From positions 1 through 64,000 of the forward strand of contig NZ_BBMP01000026.1 of NCBI RefSeq assembly GCF_000755245.1: DNA of 64,000 nt, given 5' to 3'. The position numbers were made by a program, and so were the translations under genes. The notes beneath the pieces were generated by a model. It searched no databases. It worked only from the letters and a program-made list of their open reading frames with translations, and was not told the origin of the DNA. This DNA is from Halococcus sediminicola. GTDB taxonomy: Archaea > Halobacteriota > Halobacteria > Halobacteriales > Halococcaceae. Shown piece by piece: positions 3,730 through 21,095 of this stretch; positions within the stretch are counted from its first letter, which is position 1; each line of letters begins with the position of its first letter.

Positions 3730-4596
3730 CTAAACCGTCGTCACCCTGTTTTCGAGTCGACCGACGTTTTCGATCCCGATAGCGATCTCGTCGCCCTCCG
3801 CGAGCGTGAATTCCTCGGGAACCAGCGACGTGCCCGTGAGCAGGACGGCGAGTTCGGGCGTCTCGTTGTGGCGATTCAGATACGAGACCAGCTCCTCGGG
3901 CGAGCGCACGAGATTGGACGTCGAGGTGCTGTCGTCGAACATCGTTTCGCCGTCGCGTTCGATTCGCATCGAGAGTTCCACGTTCTGGGGATCGCCGACG
4001 GTTGCGGGCGAGGCGATCGCGGGCCCGATGGCACAGCAGCGGTCGTAAATCTTGGCCTGCGGGAGATACAGTGGATTATCACCCTCGATCGAGCGGCTGC
4101 TCATGTCGTTGCCGACGGTGTAGCCGACGATATCGCCGCGGTGGACGACGACGGCGAGTTCGGGTTCGGGCACGTCCCAGTCGGAATCGCCGCGGATTCC
4201 CACTTTCTCGCCCGGTCCCACCGTCCGGGATGCGGTGGCTTTGAAGAATATTTCGGGGCGGTCGCCCTCGAAGACGCCCTGATAGATCTCACCGCGGCCG
4301 CTCTCCTCCTCGCGGGCGTCGCTGCTGACCTGATAGGTGACGCCGGCGGCCCACACCTCGTCGGGGACGGCTGGCATCGCCGCGCGCGCGACGACCGATT
4401 CGGCGTCAAGCAGCGGCGCGTCGGCGGTCAGCCCCTCCACGACGCCGTCGATGCCCGTCCCGAGCACGTCGGCGACGTTCGCCAGCGCGGCGAACGAGTC
4501 GAGACCCTCGCGGGCGGCCGTGAGGTCGTAGGCTTTCTCGCCGTCGCGGGCGACGAGTCGCGCCGTGCCGTCCTCGATCGTGCGATAGTAGCGCAT
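3730..4596 (-). CDS. FAH-family 2-keto-3-deoxy-pentonate dehydratase
   Basis: 288 residues from the ATG at 4596; a GTG at 4620 would add eight residues that look unconserved. It has the fumarylacetoacetate hydrolase fold with its metal ligands in DVPEPELAVVV and GNDMSSR, and the motif VTYQVSSDAREEES. Members with this motif include archaeal 2-keto-3-deoxy-D-arabinonate/xylonate dehydratase, which makes alpha-ketoglutarate semialdehyde. The adjacent divergent gene encodes a dehydrogenase for exactly that product, which supports this reading over a generic FAH hydrolase. It faces the rpiA operon tail to tail, with one base between the stops. The substrate (arabinonate or xylonate derivative) cannot be told from sequence. 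Confidence 0.82.
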   Translation of the reverse strand: MRYYRTIEDGTARLVARDGEKAYDLTAAREGLDSFAALANVADVLGTGIDGVVEGLTADAPLLDAESVVARAAMPAVPDEVWAAGVTYQVSSDAREEESGRGEIYQGVFEGDRPEIFFKATASRTVGPGEKVGIRGDSDWDVPEPELAVVVHRGDIVGYTVGNDMSSRSIEGDNPLYLPQAKIYDRCCAIGPAIASPATVGDPQNVELSMRIERDGETMFDDSTSTSNLVRSPEELVSYLNRHNETPELAVLLTGTSLVPEEFTLAEGDEIAIGIENVGRLENRVTTV

Positions 4597-4691
4597 ACCG
4601 GACGAACGTGGGCCGCGCACAAAGTCCCACGGGGTGGGCTTGCCATCGAAGCCGAAAGAAGGGTATGTCCCGACCTCGTATCAGACTGGCG

Positions 4692-6155
4692 ATGGCAGAT
4701 ACTTACCAGAACTACGTCGACGGCGAGTGGCGTGCGAGCGAGACGGGGGAGACCTTCGAGGTGCTCAATCCGTCGGACACGACCCAGGTCGTCGCCGAGG
4801 TCCAGCAATCGAGCGAGGCCGACGCCAACGGGGCCGTCGAAGCGGCCGCGGCCGCACAGGACGAGTGGGCCGACACGCCCGGTCCCGCACGCGGCAAGTT
4901 CCTCCGCGAGACGGCAAAACGGATGGACCAGCGCCGCGACGAACTCGCCGAGACTTTGGCGAGCGAGGAGGGGAAGACGCTCTCGGAGGCCGCCGGAGAA
5001 GTGGGTCGCGCGGTCAACATCTTCTACTACTTCGCCGAGCGCGCGATGGACTACGCCGGCGAGAGCTACAACCCAAGCGCACAGGGACAGAACCTCTACA
5101 CCGTGCGCGAGCCGATGGGTGTCGCTGGACTCATCACTCCATGGAACTACCCCATCGCGATCCCTGCTTGGAAGATGGCCCCGGCGCTCGCGACGGGCAA
5201 CACGGTGGTCTGTAAGCTCTCGGGCGAGGCTCCGACGGTCTATCTGAAGGTCGTCGAGTGCATGGACGAGGCTGCCGACGCGGCCGGCGTCCCCGACGGC
5301 GTCGTCAACGTCCTCACCGGGAGCGGCGAGGAGGTCGGCCAGCCGATCGTCACCCACGAGGACGTCGATGCGGTCTCCTTTACGGGGAGCCGGCAGGTCG
5401 GCGACATGATCTACGAGCAGGCCACCAACGCGCACAAGCGCGTCCAGACCGAACTCGGCTCGAAGAACCCGACGGTCGTGACCGACAACGCCGACATCGA
5501 GCAAGCGGCCGAAATCGTCGGCAGCGGCACGTTCGGGGTCACAGGGCAGGCCTGTACGGCGACCGAGCGCGTGCTCGTCCACGAGTCGGTCGAAGACGAG
5601 TTCGTCGACGCGCTGGTCGACTACGCCGAGGGTGTCGAGATCGGTCACTCCGTCGAGGACCCCGGAATGGGACCGAAGGTCTCCGAGAGCGAACTCGAAA
5701 CCACCCTCGACTACATCGAGACCGCACAGAACGAAGGTGCAACGGTCGAGTACGGTGGCGGCCAGCCCGAGGGTAGCGAGTACGAGGACGGCCACTTCGT
5801 CGAACCAACGGTCGTGACGGGATTGGATTCGGACGCGACCGTGATGCAGGAAGAGGTTTTCGGCCCGTTTGCCGGCGTCATGACCTTCTCCGATCTGGAC
5901 GAAGCCATCGAACTCGCAAACGACGTCGAGTACGGGCTTTCGGCGGGGATCGTCACCGACGACCACTCGGAGGCAAACCGATTCGTCGACGAGGTCGACT
6001 TCGGCATCGTGAAGGTCAACGAGGCCACCACAGGATTGGAACTCCACGTGCCCTTCGGCGGGATGAACGCCTCGTCGAGCGAGACCTACCGCGAGCAGGG
6101 CGAGGAGGGGATGGACTACTTCACCATCATCAAGACCGTCTACGACAGCTACTGA
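4692..6155 (+). CDS. Aldehyde dehydrogenase, likely alpha-ketoglutarate semialdehyde dehydrogenase
   Basis: 487 residues from the ATG at 4692 (MADTYQNYVDGEW); an upstream in-frame start at 4608 would overlap the divergent promoter. NAD(P)-dependent aldehyde dehydrogenase fold with PWNYP near residue 150, FTGSRQVG, the general base Glu in QTELGSKNP, the nucleophile Cys in TGQACTATERV and EEVFGPFAG near 400. The C-terminal NEATTGLELHVPFGGMNAS is typical of ketoglutarate semialdehyde dehydrogenases of Weimberg-type pathways. It is divergent from the keto-deoxy-pentonate dehydratase gene with a 95-bp shared promoter region, so the two enzymes probably turn a pentose acid into alpha-ketoglutarate. 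Succinate semialdehyde is an alternative substrate. Confidence 0.88.
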   Translation: MADTYQNYVDGEWRASETGETFEVLNPSDTTQVVAEVQQSSEADANGAVEAAAAAQDEWADTPGPARGKFLRETAKRMDQRRDELAETLASEEGKTLSEAAGEVGRAVNIFYYFAERAMDYAGESYNPSAQGQNLYTVREPMGVAGLITPWNYPIAIPAWKMAPALATGNTVVCKLSGEAPTVYLKVVECMDEAADAAGVPDGVVNVLTGSGEEVGQPIVTHEDVDAVSFTGSRQVGDMIYEQATNAHKRVQTELGSKNPTVVTDNADIEQAAEIVGSGTFGVTGQACTATERVLVHESVEDEFVDALVDYAEGVEIGHSVEDPGMGPKVSESELETTLDYIETAQNEGATVEYGGGQPEGSEYEDGHFVEPTVVTGLDSDATVMQEEVFGPFAGVMTFSDLDEAIELANDVEYGLSAGIVTDDHSEANRFVDEVDFGIVKVNEATTGLELHVPFGGMNASSSETYREQGEEGMDYFTIIKTVYDSY

Positions 6156-6229
6156 ATCGGCGACGTTCCTCTCTCCGCTCTCGACTGAACCTCCACGGCT
6201 CACGCTTCTTTCCGTATCGTTCGCAGAAA

Positions 6230-6304
6230 TGGGCGCTGCAGGATTTGAACCCGCGACAGCTTGGTCCGAAGCCAAGTACTCTGTCCAAACTGAGCTAAGC
6301 GCCC
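6230..6304 (-). tRNA. tRNA-Arg, anticodon TCG
   Basis: A 75-nt cloverleaf read on the minus strand. The acceptor GGGCGCT at 6304-6298 pairs with AGCGCCC at 6237-6231, followed by discriminator A at 6230; CCA is not encoded. The anticodon stem CTTGG/CCAAG encloses the 7-base loop CTTCGGA, giving anticodon UCG (reads CGA). The T arm contains the GGTTCAAAT core. An AT-rich box (gatttaact on the minus strand, near 6333) lies about 25 bp upstream of the 5' end and is a plausible TATA element. No intron is visible. Confidence 0.95.
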
Positions 6305-6391
6305 GTAGCCACCGATTACGCCGAGTCGCAGTTAAATCCCCCGATCGGCGCGTTTCGCGCCCTTTATCCGCTCACCGGCGGGAGGATGGTC

Positions 6392-7231
6392 ATGTCCGGC
6401 GAGCGTGCTCGCGGCCTGCTCGAGCTCACGAGACCCGTCAACGCCGTCGCCGCGGGGATGCTCACGTTCATCGGTGCGTTCGTCGCCGGCGGTCTCGATA
6501 TGTGGGTGGCGGTCGGCGCGGCCGTCGGCGCGACCGTGCTCGCCACCGCCGCGGGCAACGCGATGAACGACTACTTCGACCGCGAGATAGACGGCATCAA
6601 CCAGCCCGATCGCCCGATTCCCCGCGGTGCGGTCGCGCCCCGGACGGCGCTCGGGTTCAGTGGGCTGCTGTTCGCCGGCGCGGTCGTGTTCGCGCTCGCT
6701 CTTCCTGTGCCTGCTATCGCCATCGCCGTCGTCAACCTCCTCGCGCTCGTTGCCTACACGGAACTGTTCAAGGGACTACCCGGCGTCGGCAACGCGGTCG
6801 TCGGCTATCTCGGCGGTAGCACGTTCCTGTTCGGCGCGGCGGCCGTCGGGCGGATCACCGCGGCGGTCGTCGTGCTGTTCGCGCTCGCGGCGCTCTCGAC
6901 GGTCGCCCGCGAGATCGTCAAGGACGTCGAGGACGTCGCGGGCGACCGTCGCGAGGGGTTGAACACCCTCCCCATCGCCATCGGCGAGCGCCCGGCGCTC
7001 TGGCTCGCCGCCGGCCTGCTCGCGGTCGCGCTGCTCGCCAGCCCGCTTCCCTACCTCCAAGAGACGTTCGGCTGGCCGTATCTCGCCGTCGTCGCGGTCG
7101 CCGACCTCGTGATGGCCGTCGCCGCCGTCGAGAGCTTTTCCGACCCGACCGCGGGTCAGGAACACCTGAGCTACGCGATGTTCCTCGCCGGCGGCGCGTT
7201 CGTCGTCGGCCGGCTCGCGGTCGCCGTGTAG
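6392..7231 (+). CDS. UbiA-family digeranylgeranylglyceryl phosphate synthase
   Basis: 279 residues, about eight or nine membrane segments. Adds the second geranylgeranyl chain to geranylgeranylglyceryl phosphate in archaeal ether-lipid synthesis. Both prenyltransferase Asp motifs are present: NAMNDYFDREID near residue 60 and DVEDVAGDRREG near 190. An ATG at 6386 is also in frame, but a strong GGAGG at 6381-6385 directly abuts it and sits 6 bp before the ATG at 6392, so the latter start is chosen. Other UbiA enzymes (heme O or menaquinone synthesis) share the motifs, but the spacing and NQPDRPIP stretch fit the lipid enzyme best. Confidence 0.88.
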   Translation: MSGERARGLLELTRPVNAVAAGMLTFIGAFVAGGLDMWVAVGAAVGATVLATAAGNAMNDYFDREIDGINQPDRPIPRGAVAPRTALGFSGLLFAGAVVFALALPVPAIAIAVVNLLALVAYTELFKGLPGVGNAVVGYLGGSTFLFGAAAVGRITAAVVVLFALAALSTVAREIVKDVEDVAGDRREGLNTLPIAIGERPALWLAAGLLAVALLASPLPYLQETFGWPYLAVVAVADLVMAVAAVESFSDPTAGQEHLSYAMFLAGGAFVVGRLAVAV

Positions 7232-7268
7232 GCGGTGTTCTTTTCATCGCTGCCGACGTACTTCGGTC

Positions 7269-7676
7269 ATGCCAGTCACTGACGACGACGAGCTTCGTGA
7301 AATCCTCGACGGCGAGACGGTGGCCGTGGTGGGCTGCTCGTCGACGCCGGGCAAGGACGCCCACGAGATCCCGCAGTACCTCCGTGAGCACGGCTACGAC
7401 GTGATTCCGGTCAATCCGTACGCCGACGAAATCCTCGACCGGCAAGCGTACGACTCGCTCGCGGACGTCGAGGAGGACGTCGACATCGTGGACGTGTTCC
7501 GGCCGAGCGACGAAGTGAGTGGAATCGTCGATGCGGCGCTCGACCGCGAGGACTCCCCGGTGATCTGGACGCAACTCGGCATCCGCGACGGTGACGCCAC
7601 CGACCGCGCCGAGGCGGACGGTCATCGGGTTGTCGAGGACCGCTGTATGAAGGTCGAACACCAGCGCCTCTGCTGA
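7269..7676 (+). CDS. CoA-binding domain protein (YccU/CoA_binding_2 type)
   Basis: 135 residues forming a single Rossmann-like CoA-binding domain. Family marks are VAVVGCSSTPGKDAHEIP at residues about 18-35, the strand-turn VIPVNPYADEIL, DIVDVFRPSDEVSGIV and the C-terminal VVEDRCMKVEHQRL with its conserved Cys and His. These stand-alone domains bind CoA or related nucleotides in bacterial homologues; the physiological role is unknown. It follows the UbiA gene by 37 bp on the same strand. Confidence 0.88.
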   Translation: MPVTDDDELREILDGETVAVVGCSSTPGKDAHEIPQYLREHGYDVIPVNPYADEILDRQAYDSLADVEEDVDIVDVFRPSDEVSGIVDAALDREDSPVIWTQLGIRDGDATDRAEADGHRVVEDRCMKVEHQRLC

Positions 7677-7693
7677 TCGGGTGTGTCCGGGCG

Positions 7694-8011
7694 CTACTCG
7701 CCCGGCGAGGCCGTCCCGTCCGTTCCGTCGGCCGGCGGTTCGGCGTCGGCGATGTCGGTGGGCTCGGCCTCCTCGATGGCCGCCTCCGCGAGTAGCGAGT
7801 CGACGTCGATGTCCTGTTCGCGCGCCAGTGCGTCGAGGACCGCGCGCTGGTCGTCGAGGTCGCGCTCGATGCGGTCGACCTTCCGGCTCGTGGTCTCGAC
7901 GTGGGCTTTGACGTCGTTGACCTGCGAGCGAAGTTCGTCGACCTTCTGGTAGAGCGTTTCGGCCATGTCGGCCACCCGCTGGAGCTTTTTCGCCGTGTTG
8001 CCGAGTCCCAT
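7694..8011 (-). CDS. Small coiled-coil protein (DUF5798-like)
   Basis: 105 residues. Residues 1-75 form a near-continuous amphipathic helix with heptads (KKLQRVADMAETLYQKVDEL and onward), predicting a coiled coil; the last 30 residues are acidic and disordered (Ala/Asp/Glu/Pro). No membrane segment. I match it from memory to a conserved haloarchaeal family of unknown function (DUF5798). It is convergent with the CoA-binding gene, 17 bp from its stop. Confidence 0.75.
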   Translation of the reverse strand: MGLGNTAKKLQRVADMAETLYQKVDELRSQVNDVKAHVETTSRKVDRIERDLDDQRAVLDALAREQDIDVDSLLAEAAIEEAEPTDIADAEPPADGTDGTASPGE

Positions 8012-8094
8012 GTTCGTGACTGCGCGCGGAGCTACGTGGCTTTTGTGTTCCGCCCGAACGGGGCGATTAAGACGCCGCCGGCCGAGGTGGAGCT

Positions 8095-14713: not shown

Positions 14714-15202
14714 TCAGCCGAGATACTGGCCGACGTACCGGGCGATACCCACGAGGTAGGCCAGCAGCCAGAAGATCACGTAGCCGAAGACGCCGATACG
14801 CAGTCGGGAGCGCCAGTGATCCATCCGCTCGGAGCCGATCTCGTCGAGGAGCACGTCCTCGTCGTAGTCGTGATAGAGGTTGTGTCTGCGTTTCGCCCGA
14901 AAGATGCGGATTATTCCTGTAAAGGCGAAGGCGAGCAGCGCGTAGGCCTGTAATCCGAGAAAGGCGTGAAGGGCGGACGCACCGCCGAGCTGGCCGAACA
15001 GGCGGGGCACCATCCAGAACAGGAGTGGAATCGTGGTGAGCGCGAGCCCGGTGAAGATGAACTTCAGGTGGTAGACGAGCACGCCCCACGTCACGTCCTC
15101 GGTGTCGATCATGATCCACGCACCGTAGAGAAAGAGCGGAAAACTCGCCGTGACCAACAGCGCGACGACCGTCGCCACCGTCGCGTCGGCCAGCCCGAAC
15201 AT
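14714..15202 (-). CDS. Membrane protein of the bc-complex locus (DUF7321-like)
   Basis: 162 residues with four membrane segments (about 7-30, 45-65, 80-100 and 137-158) and a basic cytoplasmic loop RIFRAKRRHNLYHDYDEDV. No heme or metal motif. It is divergent from, and 92 bp from, the first gene of the Rieske/cytochrome b operon; I recall this family (DUF7321) always near haloarchaeal bc-complex genes. A likely accessory or assembly subunit, which is inference from context only. Its downstream gap (14559-14713) holds GC-rich hairpins such as gcagccggcgggctgc. Confidence 0.75.
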   Translation of the reverse strand: MFGLADATVATVVALLVTASFPLFLYGAWIMIDTEDVTWGVLVYHLKFIFTGLALTTIPLLFWMVPRLFGQLGGASALHAFLGLQAYALLAFAFTGIIRIFRAKRRHNLYHDYDEDVLLDEIGSERMDHWRSRLRIGVFGYVIFWLLAYLVGIARYVGQYLG

Positions 15203-15294
15203 GCGAGAACTCGGCCGCGCGGGCGCTAAAGGCTGCCGAAACCCGCGCGTGGGCGGTCGGAAAGCCTAACCCGGTCGGCGGCCTACGGGACGCG

Positions 15295-16149
15295 ATGGCC
15301 GACTCCCGACCCACGGCGGACGAGGGAGACGAGCGCGCGGGGAGTGCCGACGGCGAGAGCGCGGCCGCTGGCGCGACCCCATCCGAAACGGCGGAATCGA
15401 CCGACCAGCTCCGCCGGCAGGTCGAGGAGACCTACGATTTCGACGATTTCGGGCCGGCGGACATGGCACAGATGAGCGCCGAAGAGTGGGAGGCCGCCTT
15501 CGACGCCGATTCGTGGATCACCGGCGACGAACTGCTCGCGCGCGTCGAGGCCGACCTCAGAAACCGCATCGCCGAGCGCGACGTGTTCGCCAGACTCGAA
15601 GGCGTCGAGGACGGCCTGCTCGCGTATTCGGACGAAGGGTACGCCGTGGTCCACCCCGACGGCAGCGTCGAGGGTCGCGGGACCGTCCTCAGGGACGTCA
15701 AACCGACCGTCGCGCTCTGTTCGATGGACGAATACGACGTCGCGGAGCCACCCGAGGGCGAACTGCTGCCCGAACCGGAGGCGGTCCCGGAGGGTGGCGG
15801 CGAACTCGGCAACTGGATGCTCCAGTTCGTCGCCGCCGCACAGCTTTTGGCCGGTCTCGGTCTCATCGTCGCGTGGGCGTTCTTCTCGGTCGAGACGCTG
15901 TTCGCACCGGTCGCAGGTCTCGTGTTCGTCCTCTTCGCGCTCCTCCTGTTCGTGCAGGTGGCGAACGCGCGGCTCTCCGACAAGTTCCGTTCGGAGGAGT
16001 ACCGCAATCGCCTCCGGGCGGTCGGCATCGGCTCCGACGAACGCCCCGACTTTCTGCCCGAGCGCTACCGCGAGCCGACCGGCAGTCTCGCGGCGGAAGC
16101 GGAACCCGACGAACAGGGCGAACCGGACGAGTCGACACCCTCGGCGTAG
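15295..16149 (+). CDS. bc-complex locus protein with two membrane segments (DUF7319-like)
   Basis: 284 residues. An acidic, disordered N-terminus (1-40) leads to a soluble domain (about 40-165, with FDDFGPADMAQMSAEEWEAA and a VHPDGSVEGRGTVLRDVKP stretch), then two hydrophobic segments at about 180-200 and 205-225 and an acidic C-terminal tail. No cofactor motif is seen. It heads the co-directional set leading to halocyanin, Rieske and cytochrome b, ending 57 bp before halocyanin. It resembles the DUF7319 family in my recollection. The role in the complex is unknown. Confidence 0.75.
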   Translation: MADSRPTADEGDERAGSADGESAAAGATPSETAESTDQLRRQVEETYDFDDFGPADMAQMSAEEWEAAFDADSWITGDELLARVEADLRNRIAERDVFARLEGVEDGLLAYSDEGYAVVHPDGSVEGRGTVLRDVKPTVALCSMDEYDVAEPPEGELLPEPEAVPEGGGELGNWMLQFVAAAQLLAGLGLIVAWAFFSVETLFAPVAGLVFVLFALLLFVQVANARLSDKFRSEEYRNRLRAVGIGSDERPDFLPERYREPTGSLAAEAEPDEQGEPDESTPSA

Positions 16150-16206
16150 CGCCAGATACCCGCATCCGGTGGACTTATGCGAGGGCAGTCCAGAGTGTGG
16201 ATACAC

Positions 16207-16863
16207 ATGAACAGGCGGGATTTTCTGCTGGCAGCGAGTGCCGCTGCGGGGGGTTCGGCCGCCGCCAGCGGGACCGCCGCCGCACAGCAGGGCAACGGGT
16301 CCGGCGGTGGCGGCGGGAACGCTTCCGGCGGGGGTGGCGGCAACGCCTCCGGTGGCGGTGGCAACGCGAGTGGCGGCGGTGGGAACCAGAGCGCCGGCGG
16401 TGCGGGTGGCGGGGGCGGCGGTGGCCCCACGAAGACGGTGAAAGTCGGTCCCGGCGGCGCGCTCACGTTCGAACCTGCAGAGCTCTCGCTCCCGACGGGT
16501 GGCAAAGTGAAGTTCGTCTGGGAGTCGAGCGGCCACAACGTGAGTCCGAGCAGCGGCAATTGGGGCCACCAGCCAATCGAGGACAAGGGCTTCAGCTACA
16601 CGACGCCACCGTTCCAGCAGTCCGGTGCACAGGAGTACGTCTGCACACCACACGAGTCGGCGGGGATGGTCGGGACCATCCAGGTCGGTTCGAGCGGCGG
16701 TGGTGGCGGCGAGGAGGAAGAGCCGAGCCCCGAGGAGATGGGCGTGCCGTTCCAAGCACACTTCGTCGGCATCGCCACCCTGCTAATGATGGTGTTGTCG
16801 TTGGTGTACACCTTCTTCCTCGTGAAATACGGCGAGTCGCCGAACGCGAAGGGGGGAGATTAG
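16207..16863 (+). CDS. Membrane-anchored halocyanin (blue copper protein)
   Basis: 218 residues from the ATG at 16207, which starts exactly at a Tat signal (NRRDFLLAAS); the upstream ATG at 16177 would bury that signal. After a Gly/Ser/Asn-rich linker (residues about 30-80) comes a plastocyanin-like domain with all four type 1 copper ligands: His in SSGHNVSP and Cys, His, Met in YVCTPHESAGM. A single membrane helix near 190-212 (ATLLMMVLSLVYTFFLV) anchors it. It is exported by Tat and acts on the outer face as a one-electron carrier. It abuts the next gene (stop and ATG adjacent). Likely the electron acceptor of the bc complex. Confidence 0.92.
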   Translation: MNRRDFLLAASAAAGGSAAASGTAAAQQGNGSGGGGGNASGGGGGNASGGGGNASGGGGNQSAGGAGGGGGGGPTKTVKVGPGGALTFEPAELSLPTGGKVKFVWESSGHNVSPSSGNWGHQPIEDKGFSYTTPPFQQSGAQEYVCTPHESAGMVGTIQVGSSGGGGGEEEEPSPEEMGVPFQAHFVGIATLLMMVLSLVYTFFLVKYGESPNAKGGD

Positions 16864-17253
16864 ATGTCCACGTCAGGCAGTACCTACGGCGATATTCACC
16901 GATACGAGCCGGCGAGAGAGAGCACCGCCGCGGCCGTCGCCATCGTGTTGCTCACCATCGTCGAGGTGGTGTTCGTCGGCCTGTTCGCCTTCGGGCTGAT
17001 CAACGGCTGGGGGACCGAGGAAGTCGGCAACATGTATCTTGGCACGGTGTTGGCGATAATCTTCATCGACCTCGCGTTCGTCCTCCTGCTCTACCGCAAG
17101 GAATTCCTCCCGGACGTGATGATCGTCAAGAAACGCCGGCGCAAGTGGGAAGACCTCTACATCCGCGAAGAGCAGATGGAGGGCACCAGCATGGGTGGGG
17201 CCGGCGCGTGGGACAGCGTGAAACGAGCAGTCTATCCGTACTACAAGAAATAA
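16864..17253 (+). CDS. bc-complex locus two-helix membrane protein (DUF7318-like)
   Basis: 129 residues with two membrane helices (about 22-47 and 57-77) and a basic C-terminal cytoplasmic tail including VKKRRRKWEDLY and ending KRAVYPYYKK. No cofactor ligands. It starts immediately after the halocyanin stop and ends 2 bp before the Rieske start, so it is translationally linked to both. Probably a structural or assembly subunit of the complex; the function is inferred from position. Confidence 0.78.
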   Translation: MSTSGSTYGDIHRYEPARESTAAAVAIVLLTIVEVVFVGLFAFGLINGWGTEEVGNMYLGTVLAIIFIDLAFVLLLYRKEFLPDVMIVKKRRRKWEDLYIREEQMEGTSMGGAGAWDSVKRAVYPYYKK

Positions 17254-17255
17254 CA

Positions 17256-18155
17256 ATGCCAGAAGACGAAGACAGCTATCCGGCCGAATCGGGACGCAGG
17301 CGGTTCGTCAAGGGCGTCGTCGGTGCGTCGGCGCTCGGCGCGACCGGCGTGACGGGCGCGACCGCCATCAAGTACGCCACCACCTCCTCGGGGGCCGGTG
17401 GCGGGGCGACGCAGTATTTCGGCATCGAGAACATCGCTGGACCGGCCCCGCGCGGGATGCCCCAGATCCCCATCGAGATCGATTCCGATGGGTATCTGAA
17501 GGGCGTCTGGCCGGAGGTATCGACAAAGACGGTCAACAACGAGGAGGTGAAGGTCGCACAGATGAAACTCGGTGGCATCACCTACTCGAGCGAGTGGTTC
17601 CAGTACTGTGGCGTCCAGACCTACGCCGGCATCGCGCCCGATGCCGACCAGGACAACTTCTTTCGCGTCTCGGAGTCGGCTTCGACCACCTACGACTGGA
17701 TGAGCGACCTGAGCGCCGGCGACAAACTCAAGGTCAGCGATTTCAAGGACTACGAGTCGTGGGGCAACGACATCGGCAAGTCCGGCCTTGGCAAGCCGGC
17801 GATGGGGCGGTGGCGTTCGGAGGACCTCCCGCCACAGGAGACGATGCCGATACAGGTGCTCAGAAGCACGCGCATCGAGGAGTTGGCCAAGGAGAGCGAG
17901 CACCCCGAGTGGGTCAAGGCGAGCACCAAGGACGGGTTCATCGCGTGGCTGAACAAGTGTACGCACTTCTGCTGCGTGCCGGGATTCAAGTCGTCTGCTC
18001 AGAGCGCGAAGTTCGGCGGGTCGAACGACGTCTACTGCCCCTGCCACCAGTCGGTGTACGACCCGTTCAATCCCGTCAAACTCCAGTTCACGTCGCTTCC
18101 GCGGCCGGACGACCTCGGCAGCGAGAGCAGCAGCGGCGGTGAGAGCAGCTCATGA
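17256..18155 (+). CDS. Rieske iron-sulfur protein of the cytochrome bc complex
   Basis: 299 residues. The N-terminal Tat-type signal anchor has RRRFVKGVVGASALG at about 14-28. The Rieske cluster ligands are in CTHFCCVPGF (Cys235, His237) and CPCHQSVYDPF (Cys261, His264), with Cys240 and Cys263 as the stabilising disulfide pair. The ATG at 17256 is chosen because it sits just before the Tat signal and 2 bp after the previous stop; the much longer open frame upstream is non-coding there. It oxidises quinol and passes electrons to halocyanin. It overlaps the cytochrome b start by 4 bp (ATGA). Confidence 0.94.
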   Translation: MPEDEDSYPAESGRRRFVKGVVGASALGATGVTGATAIKYATTSSGAGGGATQYFGIENIAGPAPRGMPQIPIEIDSDGYLKGVWPEVSTKTVNNEEVKVAQMKLGGITYSSEWFQYCGVQTYAGIAPDADQDNFFRVSESASTTYDWMSDLSAGDKLKVSDFKDYESWGNDIGKSGLGKPAMGRWRSEDLPPQETMPIQVLRSTRIEELAKESEHPEWVKASTKDGFIAWLNKCTHFCCVPGFKSSAQSAKFGGSNDVYCPCHQSVYDPFNPVKLQFTSLPRPDDLGSESSSGGESSS

Positions 18156-18946
18156 GCCTCGAACGCCCCGACGAACACGACCACGGCGGCTGGATGGAAC
18201 AGAAGGAGCTGACACCGGTCGAGAGCACGTATCTCACGGTGTTGATGTGGCTCGACAAGCGCCTGCGCATCGTCGACTACCTCGAAGTCCTGGAGAACCT
18301 CTACTACAAGGTCAACCTCCAGATGCCCAAGAGCCACACCGAACAGTACAATCTCGACAACAAGTTCTGGTACTGGTATCCCCTCTACGCGCTCGGGAGT
18401 TTCTCGACCATCGCCTACGTCGTCGCGGCGCTCTCGGGCGCACTGCTCGGCTTTTACTACGCGCCGTCGACCGCCGGCGACCCGTCGGCGGCCTACAACG
18501 CGCTGACGATGATTATGGTCGACCTCAACTTCGGGTTCTTCCTCCGGAGTCTCCACCGGTGGTCGGCGCAGGTGATGACTGCCGCCGTCTTCTTGCACAT
18601 GCTGCGGGTCTACTTCACCGGCGCGTACAAGGAGCCGCGTGAACTCAACTGGATCCTCGGCATCGTCCTGATCAGCCTGACGATGGTCTTCGGCTACACG
18701 GGCTACCTGCTGACGTGGGACCAGCTCGCCTACTGGGCGGGCCAGATCGGTGTCGAGATGAGCCTCTCGATCCCGCTCATCGGCGAGTGGGTCGCCCAAC
18801 TCATCTTCGGTGGGTTCGCGCTCGGACAGGCGACGCTCATGCGGATGTATCTGTTACACGTCTTCTTGTTGCCGTTCGTCGTGACGTCGCTGATCGCCGT
18901 CCACATCGGCATCGTTTGGATGCAGGGGATCGCGGAGCCACACTAA
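18152..18946 (+). CDS. Cytochrome b, N-terminal (b6-type) subunit
   Basis: 264 residues with four core membrane helices preceded by a 75-residue cytoplasmic N-terminus. The four heme-ligating His are at 135 and 149 (SLHRW ... FLHM) and 236 and 251 (LLHVF ... AVHIG), spaced 14 and 15 as in cytochrome b6. The frame overlaps the Rieske gene (ATGA) and is 4 bp before the gene for the second half, so cytochrome b is split as in b6f complexes. It forms the quinol oxidation and reduction sites with the next gene product. Confidence 0.94.
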   Translation: MSLERPDEHDHGGWMEQKELTPVESTYLTVLMWLDKRLRIVDYLEVLENLYYKVNLQMPKSHTEQYNLDNKFWYWYPLYALGSFSTIAYVVAALSGALLGFYYAPSTAGDPSAAYNALTMIMVDLNFGFFLRSLHRWSAQVMTAAVFLHMLRVYFTGAYKEPRELNWILGIVLISLTMVFGYTGYLLTWDQLAYWAGQIGVEMSLSIPLIGEWVAQLIFGGFALGQATLMRMYLLHVFLLPFVVTSLIAVHIGIVWMQGIAEPH

Positions 18947-18950
18947 GACA

Positions 18951-19733
18951 ATGACTGACACCACCGACACCGACGACACGGACGCCACCGAGGTCGCCGC
19001 CGACGGCGCGGGTATCGTCGCGCCGGACGACGAGACGCCGACGTGGCGCGAACGCAAGGAGCGCCGCCAGGGGCTCTCGCGGCTCACCTACGAGTACTTC
19101 GAGCGCTCCCGGCGCGAGGATCAGGATCTCAGAACCGAATCGAGCTACGTCGAACGCGACGTGCTCGCGTTCCCGACGTGGCCCCACGAGATGATTCGGA
19201 ATCTCTCGCTGACGAGCTTCTTCGTCGGCCTGATCCTCTTTCTGGCGGCCACGCTGCCGCCACATCTCGGCGCGCCGGCCGATCCGTCGACGACGCCGGC
19301 GATCATCCTGCCCGACTGGTATCTCTACTGGTCGTTCGGGCTGCTGAAACTCGGGCCGCTGAACCCCGAACTCGCCATCCTCGGTGGCGAGAAGCTCATG
19401 GGTGATTCGACCTACGGCGTGCTCGCGAACCTCGTCGTCGTGGGTATCATTGCCATCGTACCCTTCCTGAACAAGGGCAGCGCGCGCCGGCCCGTCGAGC
19501 AGCCGTTCTGGTCGGCCGTCGGCGTCTTCGGCGTCGTCTTCGCCGTGATGATTAGCGCACTGTCGATGAAGAACCTCGTACCGGCATGGGTAGACGTCCA
19601 CCTGCTGTTCGACATGACGCTCCTGTTGCCCTTCGTGGCCGGGTTCATCACCTACGGTATTCTGAAGGCGATGCGCGAGGGGTACATGTTCGAACTCAAC
19701 AGACGGTACTACCGGCTGCGCCCGCCGCGCTGA
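18951..19733 (+). CDS. Cytochrome b, C-terminal (subunit IV-like) protein
   Basis: 260 residues. A charged N-terminal domain of about 80 residues (Asp/Thr-rich, then ERKERRQGLSRL) precedes membrane helices at about 85-103, 150-172, 188-208 and 218-240. The quinol-site motif PDWYLYWSFGLLK corresponds to PEWY of mitochondrial cytochrome b and PDWY of b6f subunit IV. Together with the upstream gene it completes cytochrome b. Operon member, with 1 bp before the next gene. Confidence 0.92.
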   Translation: MTDTTDTDDTDATEVAADGAGIVAPDDETPTWRERKERRQGLSRLTYEYFERSRREDQDLRTESSYVERDVLAFPTWPHEMIRNLSLTSFFVGLILFLAATLPPHLGAPADPSTTPAIILPDWYLYWSFGLLKLGPLNPELAILGGEKLMGDSTYGVLANLVVVGIIAIVPFLNKGSARRPVEQPFWSAVGVFGVVFAVMISALSMKNLVPAWVDVHLLFDMTLLLPFVAGFITYGILKAMREGYMFELNRRYYRLRPPR

Positions 19734-19734
19734 C

Positions 19735-20076
19735 GTGGCCGACGACAACGAGGGGAGCGGGTCGCGCGAAATCGTCGTTCCGCTGCGCGCGTACAAGGCG
19801 ATAACGGTCTTTTCGACGCTGCTCGCGATCGTTGCGGTCATCCTCGGCTTTGGCTTTCTCGACGCTGCCACCGGCGGCGCGGGCCCGCTCTCGGTACTGT
19901 TCGAGACCATCGGGCTCGCCGACGCCGGCGGCAGTGCCTTCGCGCTCGTGAGCGCGCTCGTCGGCATCGGCTTCATCGCGCTCGGAGCCGGCATCTACGT
20001 CCTCGGCACGCGCTTTCGTACCGAAGGGATGGGAAAGGCTCAAGACGACAGCGGGGAAGATTCGAGTAATGAGTGA
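19735..20076 (+). CDS. bc-complex locus small membrane protein (DUF7315-like)
   Basis: 113 residues starting at GTG 19735, one base after the cytochrome b stop, with two membrane helices (about 22-43 and 64-90) and an acidic tail. No redox motif. It overlaps the following gene by 8 bp, showing tight translational coupling in the operon. Resembles a haloarchaea-specific family (DUF7315 from memory). Proposed accessory subunit. Confidence 0.72.
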   Translation: MADDNEGSGSREIVVPLRAYKAITVFSTLLAIVAVILGFGFLDAATGGAGPLSVLFETIGLADAGGSAFALVSALVGIGFIALGAGIYVLGTRFRTEGMGKAQDDSGEDSSNE

Positions 20077-20344
20077 CGAATTCGCCAAAGGTCTCGTCGC
20101 CCTCTGTGGCGGGCTGTTCGGCTGGATGGTCTTTTCGGGCTGGTACACCACTGAGAGCTTCGAATCGACAAATCAACTCATCGGGGAAGCCCCATCGGAC
20201 CCTGCGATCTACGGCAACATCGCACTCACCATCCGTGAGGCGCTCTTTTGGTTCGCCATCTTCGGTGCGATCACCTTCTGGGTGCTCATCCCGGCGGGCA
20301 GACAGGCCCGCGCCGCGTGGCGCGACCGGCGCTCGTCGAACTGA
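20069..20344 (+). CDS. bc-complex locus small membrane protein (DUF7314-like)
   Basis: 91 residues with two hydrophobic segments (about 8-28 and 52-75) and a basic C-terminus (RQARAAWRDRRSSN). The start overlaps the preceding gene by 8 bp. It is the last gene of the co-directional Rieske/cytochrome b set. No cofactor ligand; probably a structural subunit, by context. Confidence 0.72.
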   Translation: MSDEFAKGLVALCGGLFGWMVFSGWYTTESFESTNQLIGEAPSDPAIYGNIALTIREALFWFAIFGAITFWVLIPAGRQARAAWRDRRSSN

Positions 20345-20648
20345 ATCGGTAGCGGCCGGATTTCTCGTGAACTTCACGCCTCAACACTTTCGCGTGTCTC
20401 TCCTCTGCGCGATTCATCACCGGTCGGGTATGAGGGCAACGAGCAGCGAATCCCGATTCGACTGAGAACCGCAACCGCCCACAAACTTCTCCAACCGATT
20501 CGCTTCACTCACTCCGTTCGCTCGTTCATCCCTTCGCACGAGTCGTGCGCTTCGTGCACTCTCGCGCGCCACCGCAGCCACTCGGGACGAAAGGATGGTT
20601 CGATGGTCGTCGGAACGGCTCTCTGACGTATCGGCTGTCGTCTGGCGT
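20345..20648. other. Intergenic region with dispersed element, convergent gene ends
   Basis: About 300 bp between two convergent stop codons. No credible gene on either strand. It holds the second copy of the dispersed element (20464-20576) and otherwise only short AT-poor spacer. No strong poly-T terminator was recognised. Confidence 0.6.
20464..20576. repeat. Dispersed intergenic element, copy B
   Basis: About 113 bp, starting gagaaccgca and ending gcgcgccaccgca, matching copy A at 11007-11111 in its ends, length and block order (ccgattcgct, tcgttcatccct, cgagtcg). It contains the inverted repeat gcacga-g-tcgtgc near 20536-20548. Located between convergent genes at the end of the bc locus. 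Sequence divergence from copy A is concentrated in the central block, while the ends are conserved, suggesting a mobile or structurally constrained element. Confidence 0.65.
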
Positions 20649-21095
20649 TCAGACGATCGCGTTCCAGAGCGGGGCGACGACGAAGAAGACGCTGAGGTAG
20701 GCCGCATAGAGCACGACGAGCACCGAGGCGGCGATGGCCCCGTTGGGCCGGCCGATGGCGCGGTCGTTTCTGGCCTCGACCCGTCTGGCTTCGAGTTCGA
20801 AGAAGTCGGTGACGAACATCCCGACGACGAGCACCGACAGCACCATCCCCGAGTGGAGTTCGACGGTCCCGAGGTAGAACGAGCCGAGGATGAGGAGTAT
20901 TGTAGTGGCGATGTGTGCGGGATGCTGTTCGATGGCGTCGGCACCGTCGCGTGCCTGGTTGACGTTCGAACGGTGTGAAATCATGCGCGTGATGACGTTC
21001 GCCACGGCGAGGACGACGAGCACGTACACGATGAGCGGCGGCTCGCCGCTACCGAGCACGGCGTCGACTGGACCGAACAGCGAGAGCGGGTACAT
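20649..21095 (-). CDS. Four-helix membrane protein next to the bc locus (DUF7313-like)
   Basis: 148 residues with four hydrophobic segments (about 18-37, 63-82, 84-100 and 118-142) and a polar loop SHRSNVNQARDGADAIEQ after helix 1. No heme or metal motif. It faces the bc operon tail to tail across a repeat-bearing spacer and belongs, in my recollection, to the same group of haloarchaeal bc-neighbour families (DUF7313). Function unknown. Confidence 0.72.
   Translation of the reverse strand: MYPLSLFGPVDAVLGSGEPPLIVYVLVVLAVANVITRMISHRSNVNQARDGADAIEQHPAHIATTILLILGSFYLGTVELHSGMVLSVLVVGMFVTDFFELEARRVEARNDRAIGRPNGAIAASVLVVLYAAYLSVFFVVAPLWNAIV

Follow-up and report, generated by a model that had tools for sequence, protein, structure and literature searches.

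A haloarchaeal Rieske/cytochrome b locus with an anchored halocyanin in the cytochrome c slot, predicted to encode a quinol:halocyanin oxidoreductase

Haloarchaeal pet genes resemble those of the cytochrome b6f complex and are missing from about one third of haloarchaea; a b6f-like petABD complex with halocyanin as its probable carrier is already published, and the complex analyzed here is the same one (Pfeiffer and Dyall-Smith, PMC8305020). We examined its genes in a 64,000-nucleotide stretch of the Halococcus sediminicola genome (contig NZ_BBMP01000026.1, positions 1 to 64,000 of the forward strand), which as a whole is called the window. Ten open reading frames (ORFs) at 14714-21095 encode a halocyanin, a Rieske protein, a cytochrome b split over two genes, and six membrane proteins assigned to DUF families. 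All ten were found where a preliminary description of this DNA had placed them, and Pfam searches confirm the gene content it proposed. The closest named loci are those of Halococcus thailandensis and H. morrhuae (PetB 98% identical).

The central genes lie on the forward strand in the order halocyanin (16207..16863, ATG start; PF00127 Copper-bind, E 1e-11), DUF7318 (16864..17253; PF24002), the Rieske gene petA (17256..18155, ATG start), petB for the N-terminal half of cytochrome b (18152..18946; PF00033 Cytochrome_B, E 1.8e-44), petD for the C-terminal half (18951..19733; PF00032 Cytochrom_B_C, E 4.2e-10), DUF7315 (19735..20076; PF23997), and DUF7314 (20069..20344; PF23996, and synteny). These seven genes are spaced by only -8 to +4 bp, as tightly as had been proposed, and their order is conserved across Halobacteria. 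They are preceded on the same strand by DUF7319 (15295..16149; PF24003), while DUF7321 (14714..15202, divergent; PF24007, E 2.8e-79) and DUF7313 (20649..21095; PF23995) lie on the reverse strand, the latter with an orientation and place that vary among genomes. Each of the six DUF proteins scores far above the cut-off of its own Pfam family (E from 1.3e-34 for DUF7315 to 1.1e-97 for DUF7319), so the supposedly unknown proteins are already catalogued, though functionally blank. Their description as small membrane proteins holds for their membrane nature, but not for the size of DUF7319, whose 284 residues include a large soluble N-terminal part ahead of a hydrophobic C-terminal region.

Gene order was compared across 110 halobacterial loci (80 named, 30 others). 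The recurrent arrangement is a divergent DUF7321 followed by DUF7319, halocyanin, DUF7318, Rieske, petB, petD, DUF7315, DUF7314, and DUF7313, and its recurrence in the 80 named loci means that it is not due to chance. At almost every locus, petD is closely followed by DUF7315 and DUF7314. In the Haloferax/Halobellus-type group the Rieske gene has gone from the locus and is kept elsewhere in the genome; among the genomes tested, PetA is present in 13 of 13 with petB and in none of 6 without it. The DUF families other than DUF7314 were also compared between 17 petB-positive genomes and 24 that lack petB. DUF7318, DUF7315, and DUF7313 are each found in 17/17 of the former and 0/24 of the latter, and DUF7321 and DUF7319 each in 16/17 and 0/24 (Fisher p 6.6e-12 and 1.6e-10, uncorrected for kinship). 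Since one family (f4) holds genera of both kinds, the pattern is not a single-clade effect. DUF7313 accompanies petB even in several genomes where the two are tens to hundreds of kb apart. The deep-branching petB-positive genome G021 gave no match to DUF7319 or DUF7321, and retains halocyanin, DUF7318, petB, petD, DUF7315, and DUF7314.

In Haloferax volcanii, an eight-ORF transcript of 'conserved hypothetical' genes starts at HVO_0845 (Laass et al., PMC6490895), and petB and petD are HVO_0842 and HVO_0841 (PMC8305020). This transcript fits the locus: tag by tag, it would be DUF7319, halocyanin, DUF7318, petB, petD, DUF7315, DUF7314, and DUF7313. Together with the co-occurrence with petB, it backs the proposal that the small proteins are components of the complex, to which they may be bound as subunits.

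No CxxCH motif occurs in ORFs of at least 60 residues between 8 and 27 kb of the window, so no cytochrome f or c1 gene accompanies the complex, in agreement with the preliminary description. The cytochrome c1 family (PF02167) is absent from the genome as well, which leaves the c1 subunit of bc1 complexes without a counterpart. Elsewhere in the genome, contig C9 carries one di-heme cytochrome c (locus L121, 12128-13591; CANCH and CASCH) beside ccm genes, so cytochrome c is not wholly missing from this genome, which can make c-type cytochromes. The di-heme protein resembles the SoxA/TDH-type cluster of some haloarchaea (PMC4429474). Kletzin et al. describe the missing cytochrome c genes of haloarchaea and the 'haloarchaea paradox' of heme-stained proteins that lack matching genes (PMC4429474).

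The halocyanin has a Tat (twin-arginine translocation)-type N-terminus (RRDFLLA), a Gly-rich linker, a blue copper domain, and a C-terminal transmembrane (TM) anchor (16756..16830). Its ligand motif reads CTPHESAGM and completes the type-1 copper set His ... Cys-x2-His-x4-Met; its solved structural relatives are pseudoazurins and plastocyanins. An ORF with Cys-x2-His-x4-Met stands directly 5' of DUF7318 in 74 of 79 loci, and the x3 spacing occurs in 2 more. Of these 74 ligand-bearing halocyanins, 73 end in a hydrophobic helix at the C-terminus, and a Tat-like motif is present in 70. Signal, outside redox domain, and C-terminal helix are also the layout shared by cytochromes c1 and f. At one locus from a draft genome (L094, 8219-8742), the halocyanin frame appears to be split into two overlapping frames, by a frameshift or a sequencing error.

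A phylum-wide search with DUF7318 gave one clear match outside Halobacteria, on contig 117 of genome G340 (locus L144). There, a cytochrome c with a single CVSCH motif and a C-terminal helix (4437-5006) is followed by DUF7318 (5009-5410, E 2.8e-10), a Rieske protein of normal order (5412-6128), a cytochrome b 48% identical to that of the window (6128-7090), and a PetD with a ferredoxin-like tail (7096-8067). As all these genes share one contig, the result is independent of binning. The cytochrome c matches PF00034 Cytochrom_C (E 1.3e-12) and, with its N-terminus, the actinobacterial QcrC model (E 1.1e-7), and its anchor is the best match of a hidden Markov model of the 73 halocyanin anchors (E 9e-4; next 1.7). 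Because an anchored mono-heme cytochrome c occupies the halocyanin slot and the same DUF7318, Rieske, cytochrome b, and petD genes follow, heme c appears to have given way to blue copper; that the swap ran from heme to copper is what we infer from this one outgroup. Comparison thus upholds the earlier placing of the anchored halocyanin where cytochrome c1 or f would stand, with slot, ligands, and anchor near class-wide and a cytochrome c there in L144; its role as electron acceptor stays a predicted one. L144 gave no match to DUF7315, DUF7314, or DUF7319, and its short hydrophobic ORF 3' of petD is a positional analogue only. The C-terminal domain of the L144 PetD resembles 4Fe-4S dicluster ferredoxins (Fer4 families, E down to 1.3e-10).

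In cytochrome b, the His pairs are 14 and 15 residues apart in all 110 haloarchaeal PetB proteins, as claimed for the window, and the best PDB match of PetB is cytochrome b6 (E 7.9e-45). The Qo-site motif PxWY is present in the C-terminal half, as PDWY (19311..19322) in 110 of 110 loci; in b6f it is PEWY. Ala80 of PetB (18389..18391) aligns with the b6 cysteine to which heme ci is attached. At this position the haloarchaeal proteins have Ala (76), Thr (25), or Ser (9) and never Cys, which L144 does have. As the locus has neither a cytochrome c nor this cysteine, covalent attachment of heme is predicted for none of its products (heme ci is described in PMC9162462).

PetA, which has a Tat-type N-terminal anchor, matches the Pfam Rieske family only at E 0.077, yet both of its cluster boxes, CTHFCC (17958..17975) and CPCHQS (18036..18053), are present and conserved. 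In standard Rieske proteins, and in those nar-linked ones that carry the motif, the Pro-loop strand motif (GPAPRxLPQLPI...DGYL) comes after box 2. The GPAPR block of PetA is instead found about 170 residues ahead of box 1 in 58 of 60 proteins and after box 2 in none of the 60, and it precedes box 1 in all 14 PetA proteins of a separate genome search, relocated copies included. In the window the block, GPAPRGMPQIPIEIDSDGYLKG...WFQYCGV, spans 17439..17618. BLASTP aligns PetA with the L144 Rieske protein in swapped order, residues 224-270 with 139-181 (E 3e-7) and 53-120 with 193-235 (E 7e-5, through WxxYCGV), and a PetA profile does the same. When the block is moved in silico behind box 2, the match to the actinobacterial QcrA model becomes one stretch and rises from 36.2 to 47.8 bits (from 33.2 to 44.8 bits for a second PetA), and other Rieske models reach into the moved block or newly appear; the gain is small when the ...LPRP tail after box 2 is kept. 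The Pfam Rieske model cannot tell the native from the rearranged protein because its match ends before the moved block. By the order of its motifs, the haloarchaeal PetA Rieske protein is circularly permuted, with the C-terminal GPAPR...YCGV block ahead of the cluster motifs. A literature search found no paper on a permuted Rieske protein. Three Gly between the anchor and the permuted block are invariant and could be a hinge that leads directly into the Pro loop. PetA also has invariant extra cysteines, C118 in YCGV (17607-17609) and the doubled CC of box 1 (17970-17975), which are shared by the L144 Rieske protein and possibly form an additional disulfide. One genome of the Haloferax-type group (G100) has two permuted petA genes (L128, L137).

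DUF7318 has two TM helices and a conserved cytoplasmic tail, and AlphaFold2 predicts two long helices. The QcrA model NF050121 is matched by 43 of 45 DUF7318 members, at best with E 3.2e-5 and under the model's own cut-off; the match of the window protein covers the N-terminal helix pair (19-100), and the remainder of the model is matched by haloarchaeal PetA and NarB. In hhalign, DUF7318 aligns with the C-terminus of ORF1 of the nar loci, which lies upstream of narB (probability 94.2%, E 1.2e-7); the ORF1 proteins themselves do not match the QcrA model. A sequence search of the PDB with DUF7318 gave nothing beyond E 1.4 to a QcrA chain. DUF7318 is probably the N-terminal membrane hairpin of a Rieske protein of the actinobacterial (QcrA) type that has become detached. 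The Streptomyces Rieske protein has helices 1 and 2 inserted by the Sec and helix 3 by the Tat machinery (PMC5449189), and in haloarchaea these Sec and Tat modules appear to be separate genes. A fold search with DUF7318 returned generic helical hairpins only. At the nar-linked loci L111-L116 and L118, the ORF 5' of the Rieske gene consists of a TM helix, an outside segment, a second TM helix, and a DUF7318-like hairpin; the first part of this ORF1 may be the remnant of a QcrC-like subunit minus its redox domain.

Set against known systems, the locus shares with b6f a cytochrome b in two genes, the 14/15 His spacing, and b6 as the best PDB match, but differs in having no cytochrome f and no heme-ci cysteine, and in its permuted Rieske protein, its PDWY motif, and its QcrA-like DUF7318. 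The term b6f-like in the preliminary description therefore fits only the split cytochrome b and the His spacing. With the actinobacterial QcrC-QcrA-QcrB (bcc) complex the locus shares the order of redox subunit, Rieske hairpin, Rieske head, and cytochrome b, the matches of PetA and, below the model's cut-off, of DUF7318 to QcrA, and that of the L144 cytochrome c to QcrC. It differs in that the one-chain Rieske protein with three TM helices corresponds to two genes (DUF7318 and PetA), cytochrome b is split, and halocyanin replaces the di-heme QcrC. The nar-linked haloarchaeal ORF1-NarB-NarC complex (PMC2483277) likewise has a DUF7318-like hairpin directly 5' of the Rieske gene, but its cytochrome b is undivided, its Rieske protein has the normal order, and its ORF1 has no copper or heme domain.

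Our preferred reading, to which we give a probability of about 0.78, is that the locus codes for a quinol oxidase of the Rieske/cytochrome b type that lost heme c, a heme-c-free quinol:halocyanin oxidoreductase whose catalysis, redox order, and subunit content are predicted. The sequences themselves show a conserved set and order of genes, complete ligands for the [2Fe-2S] cluster, for both hemes b, and for type-1 copper, the loss of the heme-ci cysteine, the permuted Rieske protein, and the anchored cytochrome c in the halocyanin slot of the outgroup. Menaquinol would be oxidized at the PDWY Qo site; one electron would return to quinone via hemes bL and bH, and the other would pass to the Rieske cluster and on to the blue copper domain, kept beside the cluster by its C-terminal helix, and from there to free halocyanin or a terminal oxidase. 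DUF7318 (helices 1 and 2) and PetA (the Tat-targeted helix 3 and the head) would together make up one actinobacterial-type three-helix Rieske protein, and the remaining DUF proteins would be accessory subunits or assembly factors specific to the complex. We lean slightly towards the fuller proposal of a bc complex free of covalent heme, in which a heme-c domain was exchanged for copper on the same type of anchor, heme ci was lost, the Rieske head was permuted so that the hinge runs straight into the Pro loop, and DUF7318 is a true Rieske half-subunit.

Several points weigh against these proposals. The outgroup is a single draft genome that is 73% complete, the similarity between the halocyanin and L144 anchors is modest (E 9e-4, from a small set), and the match of DUF7318 to QcrA is weak for each sequence (E 3e-5 at best), where membrane helices can mislead. 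No haloarchaeal complex with this set of subunits is known to us in purified form. For Natronomonas, a 'cytochrome bc' (18 and 14 kDa) has been reported, but protein sequencing of its heme-bearing subunit pointed to SdhD (PMC8305020).

Haloarchaea have several halocyanins, one of them fused to a terminal oxidase subunit (PMC8305020), which would suit an anchored halocyanin that is a tethered carrier for several donors and acceptors, such as terminal oxidases or NirK, and sits in the operon for co-expression only, while the complex reduces free halocyanins directly. We regard this as unlikely, given that slot and C-terminal anchor are fixed class-wide and that L144 has a cytochrome c with a similar anchor there, a subunit-like place. 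Still less probable is that the complex is completed by a subunit with c-type heme whose gene lies outside the locus and whose heme may be attached in a non-standard way, with halocyanin only downstream: the heme-stained proteins of the paradox (PMC4429474), the ccm genes, and the di-heme cytochrome c speak for it, but the genome has no cytochrome c1 family member, and the di-heme protein is SoxA/TDH-like (PMC4429474) and on a different contig. Equally hard to sustain is the idea that the permutation of PetA is apparent only, an N-terminal stretch resembling the GPAPR motif by chance. The short ...LPRP tail could be a worn-down normal Pro loop, but the N-terminal block is conserved, aligns in swapped order, as far as WxxYCGV, with the C-terminus of the L144 protein, and lifts both QcrA-model scores in a single stretch once moved behind box 2.

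The part played by the other DUF proteins is more evenly balanced. DUF7321, DUF7319, DUF7315, DUF7314, and DUF7313 might be biogenesis factors for Rieske or copper insertion or for heme b insertion and not subunits, which we hold to be nearly an even matter. Some genomes have DUF7313 and DUF7321 in divergent orientation or at another place, and G021 does without a match to DUF7319 or DUF7321, but DUF7315 and DUF7314 stay close behind petD nearly everywhere, as structural subunits often do. DUF7321 (162 residues, four predicted TM helices) is modeled by AlphaFold2 as a four-helix bundle (predicted local distance difference test score 87.7, predicted template modeling score 0.82). Its conserved H45 and H79 lie near the starts of consecutive helices and so are probably on opposite sides of the membrane. 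A b561-like heme protein was considered on account of these residues and left open, given their placement and fold matches that are generic four-helix bundles, mostly soluble proteins (best Z 12.0; b561 9.4; oxidase subunit III 9.6).

The complex is an established one whose make-up was so far unexplained; the copper-for-heme exchange, the permuted Rieske protein, the loss of heme ci, and the identity of DUF7318 are results at the sequence level. None of these four is described in the papers cited above, and we present them as new. Baymann et al. (2012) reportedly analyzed haloarchaeal complexes, and some of the present points may already be noted there. In textbook bc complexes, a c-type heme receives the high-potential electron of the Rieske cluster, and a natural copper version would show that this heme is replaceable. 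If correct, our reading bears on why heme-c partners of haloarchaeal bc complexes have never been found and would give several Pfam DUF families testable subunit roles, and a Rieske protein that is circularly permuted yet keeps its cluster would offer a natural experiment on how the attachment of the hinge affects head movement in the Q-cycle.

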